A stretch of DNA of 5,854 nucleotides, taken from assembly GCF_019052655.1 (NCBI RefSeq), contig NZ_JAHQVB010000095.1, positions 1 to 5,854 on the forward strand, read 5' to 3'. The DNA comes from Holdemanella porci. GTDB lineage: Bacteria; Bacillota_I; Bacilli_A; Erysipelotrichales; Erysipelotrichaceae. The number at the start of each line of letters is the position of its first letter. The first letter of the stretch is position 1. The notes beneath the pieces were generated by a model. The model worked only from the letters and a program-made list of their open reading frames with translations. It did not search any database and was not told where the DNA came from. This document shows, one piece after another, positions 1-5,854 of this stretch. The position numbers were made by a program, and so were the translations under genes.

Positions 1-403
1 GACTAGCATATCCAGCAGTTGCACCTTCAACAAAAGAACATAATCCTGTTACACCAAATGTTTTTGTGTCTGATCCCCATGAAATTTCGTCAGCTCCTTG
101 ACCTTTCCATCCAACAAATTTATATCCTTCTTTAGCTGTTACTTCTGGAATTGAATATTGTTGATCACTATTTTCATCAAGATGTTCGAAACTAACTGTA
201 TTAGTTCCATATTCAGTGAATGAACCATATTCTGGATTTACATTGAAGTAAACATTTGCTTCCCTATTACTTGTTCTTACCCCCCCCCACGTACTTTCTT
301 CTGCAGTTTTATTGTCTGCATAAATTTGCATTGAAGCGGACGGAACCATTGACAATGCCAACAATCCACTTAATGCGATTCTTGATAAATGTTTCTTTTG
401 CAT
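1..403 (-). CDS. secreted/surface protein, N-terminal part, poly-G phase-variable candidate
   Basis: The gene runs off the left edge; 134 codons are visible. The ATG at 403-401 follows a strong AAGGAG site with about 8 nt spacing. Residues 1-29 form a signal peptide: basic start (K3, K4, R8), hydrophobic core IALSGLLALSMV (9-20), and probable cleavage after IYA (27-29). The mature part begins DNKTAEEST, then WGGV (39-42) encoded by nine consecutive G. Residues 80-100, with GYKFVGW at 93-99, resemble the InlB B-repeat/Listeria-Bacteroides repeat fold common in firmicute wall-anchored proteins; this assignment is by eye. No anchor is visible because the C-terminus lies outside the window. It is probably exported and attached to or released from the cell wall; ligand unknown. 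The present tract length leaves the frame open (ON). Secretion is well supported; the adhesin role is an inference. Confidence 0.8.
   Translation of the reverse strand, partial: MQKKHLSRIALSGLLALSMVPSASMQIYADNKTAEESTWGGVRTSNREANVYFNVNPEYGSFTEYGTNTVSFEHLDENSDQQYSIPEVTAKEGYKFVGWKGQGADEISWGSDTKTFGVTGLCSFVEGATAGYAS
280..288 (-). repeat. G9 homopolymer inside the surface protein gene (contingency tract)
   Basis: Nine C on the plus strand are nine G in the sense strand, covering the last two bases of codon 39 to the first base of codon 42. It is exceptional in such AT-rich DNA. With eight G the next codon is TAA; with ten G a TAA follows at codon 46. Either change therefore truncates the protein to about 41-45 residues. 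Slipped-strand mispairing at such tracts is an established ON/OFF mechanism for surface genes; its operation here is inferred. Confidence 0.75.
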
Positions 404-456
404 TATAAGCACTCCTTTCCTTCTAAACTTATTTTTCTTGCGCAAAAAAATGCAAC

Positions 457-481: not shown

Positions 482-508
482 ATTATATTACACCCATTTT
501 CTTGTAAA
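482..508 (-). promoter_or_regulatory. probable promoter of the surface protein gene
   Basis: On the minus strand TTTACA (508-503) and a perfect TATAAT (487-482) are separated by 15 nt, shorter than the usual 17. The -10 box lies about 80 nt upstream of the ATG, leaving a leader of about 70 nt. The -10 is good; the -35 choice is uncertain. Confidence 0.45.
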
Positions 509-1746: not shown

Positions 1747-2727
1747 TTAATCTTTAATTTCGTAACAAATAGAACCATGACCATCTTTGATTTCAATACT
1801 TGCCATGGCACCATTTACTACATACATATGCGGATATGTATGTCCAATATCCACCTTAAATACGACATCTATATCAGGTAATGCCTTTTTAAAAGCCTGG
1901 TCATACCCAATTAAATCCGAAACATTCTTAAATAGTACACGACCCACCAATATAGCCTTCGTATATTTAAAATACCCCATATACTTCATCTTCAATAAAG
2001 CACGATACACATCACATGAGTTCATTGAAAAAATATCAAAGAACCAAATAATCCCATCCAACTTATATCGTTCATTAAAAACTTCTACAAAGTCATAAGG
2101 CGTGCCCGCCATATCATTTATACTCTCAAAACAACCACCAAGTAATCTACCCACTACACTACAATTACCCACATATTCTGTCTTTGTGTTAAGTATTGGA
2201 GCTCCATCATTATAAAAATCAACATCCTGATGCAGAGAACTTGAATGTAGTTCACCATTCTTTCCCTTTAAAAAATCAAGACACAAACTTGAATATTCAT
2301 TGATACCATATTCATCAAAACTACCCGCATTAAAACCATACACCGTAGCCAAATCACACTTACAAGTAATGGGAAATAATAAATTTGTAGGATCACTCGC
2401 ACCCAAATACCACTTAGGATTCTTTTCAATCCAATCAAAATCAATATATGGCAACGTCTCAAACTGAAAATCACCACCCGCAGCCAACCATACAGCTCCA
2501 ACACTAGAATCATTCACCAACGAATTCAATTCATCAACACGAGTTTTGGCATCAATACTTGGTTCACTATTATTACGAACACTAGCTGTTTCAACAATAT
2601 GAAACCCATTGGATTGAATATACTCTATAGACGCATCAAAACTATCTAGCTTATGCCCTACACCACTCGACATAGCACAAACACCAATCGTATTATACTT
2701 CTCATTTAAAAACTTAGGATATTTCAT
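1747..2727 (-). CDS. S66-family peptidase (LD-carboxypeptidase / MccF-like)
   Basis: 326 residues from the ATG at 2727-2725, preceded by GGAGG 11 nt upstream. A longer reading from 2790 is unlikely because a TATAAT box (2755-2750) lies within that extension. S66 enzymes cut the amide next to a D-amino acid in muropeptides, or detoxify microcin-C-like peptides; they are cytoplasmic and no signal peptide is seen. Visible motifs: N-terminal NTIGVCAMSSG; AAGGDFQFETLPYIDFDWI before the nucleophile elbow YLGASDPT (Ser111); RLLGGCFE and GTPYDF; DGIIWFFDIFSMN, where the catalytic acid falls on Asp231 and not the usual Glu; and DIGHTYPHMYVVNG with His296. Length is normal for the family. It stands alone, next to IS debris and a divergent TA operon. 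Family sure; substrate unknown. Confidence 0.85.
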   Translation of the reverse strand: MKYPKFLNEKYNTIGVCAMSSGVGHKLDSFDASIEYIQSNGFHIVETASVRNNSEPSIDAKTRVDELNSLVNDSSVGAVWLAAGGDFQFETLPYIDFDWIEKNPKWYLGASDPTNLLFPITCKCDLATVYGFNAGSFDEYGINEYSSLCLDFLKGKNGELHSSSLHQDVDFYNDGAPILNTKTEYVGNCSVVGRLLGGCFESINDMAGTPYDFVEVFNERYKLDGIIWFFDIFSMNSCDVYRALLKMKYMGYFKYTKAILVGRVLFKNVSDLIGYDQAFKKALPDIDVVFKVDIGHTYPHMYVVNGAMASIEIKDGHGSICYEIKD

Positions 2728-2749
2728 ACACAAAAAAACCTCCACACCC

Positions 2750-2777
2750 ATTATAAAGGAAAAACGACAAGACACAA
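2750..2777 (-). promoter_or_regulatory. promoter of the S66 peptidase gene
   Basis: TTGTGT (2777-2772), 16 nt, then perfect TATAAT (2755-2750) on the minus strand. Transcription would begin near 2743, giving a leader of only about 16 nt that holds the GGAGG. It fixes the ATG at 2727 as the start, since any upstream ATG would not be transcribed. Confidence 0.65.
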
Positions 2778-2822
2778 AGTCCTGCCGCATTTCCCATAGT
2801 TTTAAGATAGAAAGGAAGTTTC

Positions 2823-3093: not shown

Positions 3094-3127
3094 TTAAGTG
3101 CAATAAGCAGATAAGGAGTTGACATTT

Positions 3128-3403
3128 ATGGCTAACACAACTAATTTCAGTGTTCGTATGGACAGCGATATTAAGAAACAATGCGAAGCAATGTATGGTG
3201 AATTAGGTATCAATCTTACTACTGCAATTAACGTGTTTCTTCGTCAATTACTTCGTGTTGGTGGTTTCCCTTTTGATGTACGTATGGAGAAGCCAAATAA
3301 AGAAACGATAGCAGCAATGTTGGAAGCAGAACGCATTGCACGTGATTCATCTGTAAAGCGCTACTCTGATGTAGAGGAAGCATTGAAGGCATTAAAAGAA
3401 TGA
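3128..3403 (+). CDS. dinJ: RelB/DinJ-family antitoxin
   Basis: 91 residues from ATG 3128, with AAGGAG 9 nt upstream. A TTG at 3119 in the same frame sits too close to the RBS and is rejected. The N-terminus NTTNFSVRMDSDIKKQCEAM gives the DNA-contacting beta strand and helix A of a ribbon-helix-helix fold. LGINLTTAINVFLRQLLRVGG (about 28-48) is the RelB/DinJ signature helix B with the following GGFPFDV. The C-terminal half (PNKETIAAMLEAERIARD and RYSDVEEALKALKE) is the flexible, charged arm that wraps the toxin. It neutralises YafQ and represses the operon, most strongly as a complex. The stop overlaps the yafQ start (ATGA), so the two are translationally coupled. All expected parts are present. 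Confidence 0.9.
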   Translation: MANTTNFSVRMDSDIKKQCEAMYGELGINLTTAINVFLRQLLRVGGFPFDVRMEKPNKETIAAMLEAERIARDSSVKRYSDVEEALKALKE

Positions 3404-3663
3404 GTAAACATTTAGACATCGTTTGGAAAAATCAATTTAAAAAGGATTATAAGCTTGCGATGAAGCGTCATCTTGATATCGATCTTCTTGACAACATTAT
3501 TCGTAAATTGGCTAGCAACGAAGAACTTCCAGAGAAGAATAAGGATCACGCATTAACCGGAAACTGGATTGGTCATCGTGAATGTCACATTCAGCCGGAT
3601 TGGCTTTTACTCGTGTTAACATTATCCCGAACAGGAACACATAGCGATTTATTTGGAAAGTAA
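3400..3663 (+). CDS. yafQ: YafQ-family mRNA interferase toxin, internally shortened
   Basis: 87 residues; the ATG overlaps the antitoxin stop by 4 nt. YafQ toxins are ribosome-dependent endoribonucleases with a RelE-like fold. The visible parts match: LDIVWKNQFKKDYKLAMKRH at the N-terminus, then KNKDHALTGNW, RECHIQPDW and RTGTHSDLFGK. Residues reported as important in E. coli YafQ fall at H50, H63 and D67 with identical numbering. The last pair falls at H81 and F85, where E. coli has H87 and F91. Thus six residues are missing between D67-W68 and RTGTH, where the family has a strand reading like ILIYKL/LLIYRI followed by a turn; here it is only LLLVLTLS. The frame is kept, so this is an in-frame deletion or a variant form. 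Toxicity may be lost or reduced. A terminator follows 8 nt after the stop. Confidence 0.85.
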   Translation: MSKHLDIVWKNQFKKDYKLAMKRHLDIDLLDNIIRKLASNEELPEKNKDHALTGNWIGHRECHIQPDWLLLVLTLSRTGTHSDLFGK

Positions 3664-4606: not shown

Positions 4607-5665
4607 CTAGATCAAAGAATTATCTTTGAAATAATTGATTTTCATACTTGACTTCACTTCATCCAAAGTCTTTTCCGCTGTCGCATACGCCTTTTTCGTA
4701 CCCTCTTCTAGAATCTTGACAACTTCAGGAAGTTTTGCCTGCCATTCCAATCTTCTTTCACGAATTGGAGCCAACTCTTCTTGCATAACACTATTTAAGA
4801 AACGCTTCACCTTCACATCTCCTAAACCACCACGCTGATAGTGTGCTTTTAATGCATCCAAGTTTTCATATTCAGGCAAATACTTTTCGAAATGCTCTGG
4901 CTTACAGAATGCATCCAAATATGTAAATACACAGTTTCCCTCAATCTTACCAGGATCACTCACCTTAATATGATCAGGATCTGTATACATACTCATAACT
5001 TTCTTCTTGATTGTCTCTTCATCATCCGACAAATAAATACAGTTACCCAAAGACTTAGACATCTTTGCCTTACCATCTGTACCCGGAAGTCTTAAACAAG
5101 CACAGTTTTGTGGTAATAAGATTTTAGGTTCTACTAAAGTCTCCCCATAGATTGAATTGAATTTATGAACGATCTCCTGCGTCTGTTCAATCATAGGCAT
5201 CTGATCTTCTCCAGCAGGAACCGTAGTCGCCTTAAATGCCGTAATATCTGCAGCCTGTGAAATTGGATAACACTGGAAGCCAACTGGAATACTCGCATCA
5301 AATCCACGCATCTTAATTTCAGCCTTCACAGTTGGATTTCTTTGAAGACGACTTACAGAAACTAAGTTCATATAATAGAATGTCAATTCTGTCAATTGAC
5401 TGATTTCAGACTGAATAAAAATTGTTGTCTTACTCGGATCAATACCACAAGCCAAATAATCCAAAGCCACCTCTAAAATGTTTTCACGCACCTTATCCGG
5501 ATTATCAAAATTATCTGTCAATGCCTGTGCATCCGCAATCATAATATAAATTTCATCATATTCTCCAGAATTCTGTAAAAGAACACGATTTCTTAAGGAA
5601 CCCACATAATGTCCAATATGCAATTTACCCGTCGGACGATCCCCCGTTAAAATAATCTTAGCCAT
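4607..5665 (-). CDS. trpS: tryptophan--tRNA ligase
   Basis: 352 residues from the ATG at 5665-5663, with GAGG 5 nt upstream; a longer frame from 5725 overlaps galE and is rejected. The enzyme charges tRNA-Trp with tryptophan using ATP in the cytoplasm. It is a class Ic synthetase: the N-terminal MAKIILTGDRPTGKLHIGHY holds the HIGH signature at 16-19, and KAKMSKSLGN holds KMSKS at 201-205. GEDQMPMIEQTQEIVHKFN (152-170) is the conserved mid-domain segment that sits by the active site. The C-terminal helical part (about 210-352) recognises the anticodon. Length is normal for the long firmicute-type TrpRS with KIILTGDRPTG. It lies 10 nt after galE, with its RBS overlapping the galE stop, so no T-box leader is possible here; control would come from the operon promoter outside the window. 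Confidence 0.97.
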   Translation of the reverse strand: MAKIILTGDRPTGKLHIGHYVGSLRNRVLLQNSGEYDEIYIMIADAQALTDNFDNPDKVRENILEVALDYLACGIDPSKTTIFIQSEISQLTELTFYYMNLVSVSRLQRNPTVKAEIKMRGFDASIPVGFQCYPISQAADITAFKATTVPAGEDQMPMIEQTQEIVHKFNSIYGETLVEPKILLPQNCACLRLPGTDGKAKMSKSLGNCIYLSDDEETIKKKVMSMYTDPDHIKVSDPGKIEGNCVFTYLDAFCKPEHFEKYLPEYENLDALKAHYQRGGLGDVKVKRFLNSVMQEELAPIRERRLEWQAKLPEVVKILEEGTKKAYATAEKTLDEVKSSMKINYFKDNSLI

Positions 5666-5675
5666 AAATACCTCA

Positions 5676-5854
5676 CTATAATAATTGTTTCTTCGCAAAA
5701 TTCCATGTATCTCTACACATATCATCTAGATTCTTTTCAGCCACCCAGCCAAGCTGTTCCTTAGCTCTTGTAGGATCTGCGAAACATGTCGCAATATCTC
5801 CTGGACGTCTTGGTTTGATGACATAAGGAATCTTAATTCCATTCACTCTTTCAA
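5676..5854 (-). CDS. galE: UDP-glucose 4-epimerase, C-terminal part
   Basis: The gene enters from the right edge; the last 58 residues and TAG (5678-5676) are visible. They read ERVNGIKIPYVIKPRRPGDI, then ATCFADPTRAKEQLGWVAEK and NLDDMCRDTWNFAKKQLL. IPYxxxPRRPGDIATCFADPTKA followed by LGWxAEKxLDDMCRDxWxW is the typical C-terminus of GalE, a short-chain dehydrogenase-fold enzyme that interconverts UDP-glucose and UDP-galactose using bound NAD. PRRPGD contributes to UDP-sugar binding. Galactose use and supply of UDP-galactose for envelope polymers are the usual roles. The N-terminal Rossmann part and YxxxK active site are outside the window. The stop overlaps the trpS RBS (TAGTGAGG). Confidence 0.92.
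   Translation of the reverse strand, partial: ERVNGIKIPYVIKPRRPGDIATCFADPTRAKEQLGWVAEKNLDDMCRDTWNFAKKQLL

Follow-up and report, generated by a model that had tools for sequence, protein, structure and literature searches.

A probable poly-G ON/OFF switch in a predicted surface-protein gene of Erysipelotrichaceae

A run of nine G near the start of a gene for a predicted surface protein is likely to act as a slipped-strand translational ON/OFF (phase-variation) switch. This assignment comes from an analysis of a 5,854-nucleotide stretch of DNA, here called the window, together with public proteins related to the gene product. A sequence-only reading of the same DNA had already proposed a poly-G phase switch, and the proposal is now supported by the tract itself, by the consequences of tract length for the reading frame, and by frame differences located at the tract in public proteins.

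In the mechanism that we propose, slippage during replication would add G to the tract or remove G from it. At 6, 9, or 12 G (ON), the predicted signal peptide would be joined to the repeat domains, a linker, and a predicted C-terminal membrane anchor. At 7, 8, 10, or 13 G (OFF), a stop within four codons past the tract would leave a short peptide alone. Switching would be reversible, and surface display would be lost in the OFF state. The features of the window that bear on this mechanism, together with the neighboring genes, are collected in Table 1.

Table 1. Features of the window, with positions, strand, and the basis of each assignment
Feature	Position	Strand	Basis
Surface-protein gene (predicted), 5' part; ATG at 403, 134 codons, running off the window start	1..403	-	ORF; P0029
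First InlB-B-repeat-like domain, residues 45-134 present, directly past the tract	2..271	-	Pfam Flg_new, model
Poly-G tract, G9, codons 39-42 (TGG GGG GGG GTA)	280..288	-	sequence
Sec signal peptide (predicted), residues 1-29, MQKKHLSR...MQIYA	317..403	-	by eye
Shine-Dalgarno-like AGGAG, 8 bases upstream of the ATG	412..416	-	by eye, inferred
T7 tract in the leader	444..450	-	sequence
Possible promoter, TTTACA - 15 nt - TATAAT	482..508	-	by eye
IS1595-family transposase remnant, upstream of the surface gene	812-1075, up to about 1200	-	NF033547, E 1.6e-5, below cut-off
Peptidase S66 (LD-carboxypeptidase) family gene	1750-2790	-	family match
RelB/DinJ-family antitoxin and YafQ/RelE-family toxin pair	3119-3663	+	family match
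TrpRS gene	4610-5725	-	genome-sample matches

The G9 tract and its reading frame

The + strand reads CCCCCCCCC at window positions 280-288, which places G9 on the coding (minus) strand and bears out the nine consecutive G reported earlier. The base composition of the window is 34% GC, and G9 is its sole run of G or C of at least six bases. Besides the tract, the longest runs on the + strand are five C and three G, in agreement with the earlier claim that G runs are otherwise short in this DNA. Runs of at least nine bases are expected 0.003 times (C) and 0.00004 times (G) in the window, as computed from base-to-base transitions with the tract excluded from the estimate. All four matches to GGGGGG in the window lie inside the G9 run, and a count of four was reached in 2 of 200 shuffles.

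Translation of the window DNA with an altered tract shows how the frame depends on length. The gene is open to the window end at 6, 9, and 12 G, and a premature stop appears at codon 45 with 7 G, 42 with 8 G, 46 with 10 G, 43 with 11 G, and 47 with 13 G. The sequence-only reading had described the gene as open at nine G, with stops at codon 42 for eight G and codon 46 for ten G, and recomputation returned the same values. A homopolymer within an ORF, with the frame set by its length, is characteristic of a contingency locus, and this is the arrangement found here.

The position of the tract in the protein also appears permissive. In the model of the full-length relative P0029 (310 aa), tract residues 39-42 lie inside the low-confidence segment 1-44, ahead of the first domain, and the segment between the signal peptide and this domain is predicted from the model to be disordered. 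Such a segment would likely tolerate one glycine more or less, the outcome of adding or removing three G.

Frame variants among public relatives

Relatives were collected by a first search (22 proteins), a profile search of the 7997 best-sharing candidates (74 proteins at an E cut-off of 1e-10), and a short-product search that used the product expected at ten G as query (6 proteins), giving 80 different proteins in all. Versions of the window DNA with tracts of 5 to 13 G were then matched against public proteins. Three proteins are reproduced at a single tract length each: P0029 at 9 G only (134/134 residues, the whole of the window's gene product), P0010 at 10 G only (107/107 residues), and P0003 at 7 G only (106 residues, reaching the window end). 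P0003 and P0010 are not encoded by the window as given; all three proteins carry the same "-" source mark as the window's own proteins and are not demonstrably independent records. The contig of P0010 has 5855 bases versus 5854 for the window and both end at the same residue, so that P0010 looks like the product of the same contig with one extra G. At the protein level, natural variants both shorter and longer than the open length are thus found.

Frame changes at the tract were also detected by tblastn, in which 11 proteins had matches in two or more frames. The change falls at the tract in eight of these (P0003, P0008, P0010, P0012, P0017, P0075, P0076, and P0078), elsewhere in P0051, and in the leader in P0077 and P0079. 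For the eight proteins, this independent alignment agrees with the tract as the site of frame change.

Fixed rules classify 36 of the 80 proteins: 12 are in frame, 14 are out of frame, one (P0005) leaves the frame and later regains it, and nine have an interrupted run. All lengths outside the window are inferred from predicted proteins of assemblies, and those outside the window's own allele assume GGG glycine codons. The in-frame proteins fit 9 G in a W context (5), 7 G (3) or 10 G (3) in an F context, and 8 G in an L context (1). A signal peptide is present in 11 of the 12; P0016, in the F context, is without one and is fused to other sequence. The 14 out-of-frame proteins, a share biased upward because the short-product search sought short forms on purpose, comprise nine leaderless and five short forms. 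The leaderless forms fit 7 G (2), 8 G (5), and 10 G (2), with the M-G-G-V forms P0015, P0018, P0028, and P0033 fitting 8 G only if their start is the tract GTG. The short forms fit 7, 8, 9, 9, and 13 G; the one at 8 G, P0076, has an altered stop and reads on to 54 residues. Two short OFF products, P0075 and P0078, represent clusters of 20 and 58 sequences, with lengths read from the representatives alone. By context, the out-of-frame lengths are 7, 8, 10, and 13 in W, 7 in L, 8 in F, 9 in S, and 9 in F-L.

The sequence-only reading had held that mixtures of 8, 9, and 10 G would support a switch, and the proteins of relatives fit 7, 8, 9, 10, and 13 G. The lengths of 8 and 13 G, inferred in relatives, would add to the 7, 9, and 10 G found with exact flanks. 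The W, L, and F alleles were considered as proof of length change and rejected as such: W9, L8, and F7 differ by substitution, because all three total ten T plus G bases. F10 is three bases longer than any of these and is still open.

The leaderless ORFs start either at the tract GTG or at an ATG that has no Shine-Dalgarno-like sequence ahead of it (by eye), and since they would have no signal peptide, their products are not expected at the surface. The two untargeted searches returned nine tract-located leaderless forms versus three breaks elsewhere (P0014, P0019, and P0051). Breaks off the tract were located by tblastn in P0051 and by eye in P0014, P0019, and P0080. The 44 unclassified proteins include five, P0014, P0019, P0026, P0051, and P0070, that have the family anchor without a readable junction.

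Ordinary decay would also generate out-of-frame copies: the tract would be a mutation hotspot, the gene dispensable and inactivated there, and the OFF copies dead ends. OFF forms are indeed common, at 14 of 36 (partly through the targeted search), and other breaks or fusions are seen in P0051 (tblastn) and in P0014, P0080, P0016, and P0070 (by eye). Against decay, open reading still reaches the C-terminal anchor in five of the nine leaderless OFF forms, and a long G run is retained in the W, L, F, and S contexts. Codon usage points in the same direction: GGG is a minor Gly codon across six genes of the window (GGT 45, GGA 23, GGG 10, GGC 3; 10 of 81), and two of these ten GGG codons make up part of the tract. 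We consider decay an unlikely explanation.

Homopolymer error in sequencing or assembly, in which one true length is miscounted in some assemblies, fits the single base that separates the window from the P0010 contig. Every variant is known from predicted proteins, and a study of Bifidobacterium breve advises care with G-tract lengths in databases and in Illumina reads (PMC9187656). However, the inferred lengths in the W context extend from 7 to 13, which exceeds ±1, the F alleles are open at 7 G and at 10 G but out of frame at 8 G, and the out-of-frame forms span ena, ncbi, and lgn rows. Miscounting is thus quite unlikely to account for the variants. Programmed transcriptional or ribosomal slippage, which a nine-base G run could in principle support on general grounds and which would yield some ON protein at every tract length, is very unlikely, as the encoded frames differ between records and such slippage does not require them to.

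A slipped-strand switch at the tract is not universal among the relatives, because in nine proteins the run is interrupted and reads G-E-V; one of these, P0080, terminates early for another reason. Alleles of this G-E-V type may be locked in the ON state.

The encoded protein, its leader, and neighboring genes

The window holds part of the first repeat domain, and this fragment scores 18.4 bits with Flg_new, below the Pfam cut-off. P0029 scores above the curated cut-offs for PF09479 (28.2 bits; cut-off 27) and PF18998 (25.0 bits; cut-off 23.6), which by domain match places it with surface proteins of the InlB B-repeat / Listeria-Bacteroides repeat type. With the family profile as query, the PDB sequence search gave no match at E 0.01, and the top Foldseek match is a Streptococcus pyogenes pilin, with a TM of 0.18, on which no assignment was based by itself.

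The C-terminus encoded by the gene lies outside the window, and the anchor tests were made on P0029 and P0023. LPXTG models gave no match to either protein at E up to 0.1; P0029 ends in NKVSTGAATGLFGSLAGVTAAGASLVALLRKKNSK and is without an LPXTG motif ahead of a C-terminal membrane segment. P0020, a distant relative, scores as a match to both LPXTG models. Other relatives include P0018, a partial Holdemanella porci protein with 69% identity over 71% of the query, and more distant proteins from Brotaphodocola sp. (P0038) and Mediterraneibacter faecis (P0048 and P0050). Holdemanella (Erysipelotrichaceae) is the likely source of the window.

The number and order of repeat domains vary among P0023, P0024, P0025, P0026, P0029, and P0070 (by eye). 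Together with the fused or deleted appearance of P0026 and P0070, this variation suggests recombination between modules. A second break lies in the repeat domain, close to a TGGGGA sequence near window positions 61-73, and is seen in P0051 (tblastn) and P0014 (by eye). In P0016, MNSFHQLIEE runs directly into ESTFGG, as if a deletion had fused an IS1595-like remnant of this kind to the surface gene.

The leader may hold a second variable element, its T7 tract. N-terminal extensions imply six T in P0077 and nine in P0079 (by eye, assuming that leucine is encoded by TTG). A promoter scan with spacers of 16-18 did not return the candidate listed in Table 1, and the other sites that it found were no commoner than chance. 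Tentatively, we suggest that the locus could be doubly tuned in a human-gut genus of Erysipelotrichaceae, with the poly-G switch accompanied by an expression-setting leader poly-T, exchangeable repeats, and locked-ON alleles, which together might shift the surface with respect to phage or host IgA.

A scan of genome contigs returned three distant Clostridia loci (L001-L003), in which the matches lie inside large, otherwise different-looking proteins; a fourth candidate, L004, was a chance DNA match and was rejected as a relative. A run of seven G was found in 0 of the 15 loci examined, and searches with two tract-flank DNA patterns gave no match. Searches of viral contigs gave no relative, and P0029 had no match in plasmid and phage collections. 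Among plasmid records matching the window DNA, the best 20 of 60 all fall within 4751-5665, in the TrpRS gene. Matches to TrpRS listed in the Clostridia-centred genome samples have 59-78% identity, the best being 77-78%, which may reflect gene exchange in the past. These samples comprised 398, 189, 392, and 199 genomes, the 189-genome sample gave no match at 1e-190, and no close host genome was found in them. YafQ was found in 0 of the three Clostridia-centred genomes in which it was sought. Rfam models returned nothing at gathering scores in the window.

Comparison with known switches

If the tract acts as proposed, its length could be read from metagenome sequences, and ON/OFF ratios could then be compared between people and diets and followed with phage exposure and disease, with no need for culture. 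In protein records, gene callers split the gene, and OFF states are entered as leaderless or tiny proteins. Literature on phase variation or surface proteins in Holdemanella and Erysipelotrichaceae, covered at the level of titles and abstract openings and with few subscription journals, yielded no such switch. The mechanism is known; the gene and the lineage appear new for it.

In contingency genes of Neisseria and Campylobacter, the length of a poly-G tract controls the expression of surface-related genes; these bacteria are Gram-negative and carry many such genes per genome. Bifidobacterium breve is a high-GC member of the Actinomycetota. The sequence-only reading had described such switches as mostly Gram-negative, a statement that needs correction in view of published examples in B. 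breve, Gardnerella, and S. pyogenes.

The closest parallel in its layout is that of B. breve UCC2003, where G-tract length in the sortase-pilus genes bbr_0113 and bbr_1889 decides pilus production (PMC9187656). As here, the tract is intragenic and lies between a secretion signal and the remainder of a surface protein, its length joins two ORFs, and the host is a Gram-positive gut commensal (PMC9187656). The B. breve genes belong to a pilus operon with a dedicated sortase (PMC9187656), whereas the gene described here is a low-GC gene, likely of Erysipelotrichaceae, for which no LPXTG was found. Slippage in B. breve was measured by Maximum Depth Sequencing (PMC9187656), whereas the lengths reported here are inferred from protein records.

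In Gardnerella, homopolymer tracts of at least 8 are found at predicted surface-protein genes, some with InlB B-repeats (PMC11287997); the tract described here resembles these. Gardnerella differs in that it belongs to the Actinobacteria, the gene is a different one, and about 70% of its G/C tracts lie upstream of genes (PMC11287997). The mga gene of S. pyogenes contains an intragenic polycytidine tract with reversible frame change and is thus likewise an intragenic G/C homopolymer in a Gram-positive bacterium (PMC10330708). That tract lies in a regulator gene and affects the M protein indirectly (PMC10330708), whereas the G9 tract lies within the gene for the predicted surface protein. Should the switch operate as proposed, a low-GC Gram-positive commensal of the Erysipelotrichia would hedge its surface by the same simple-repeat device as Neisseria, Campylobacter, and Bifidobacterium.
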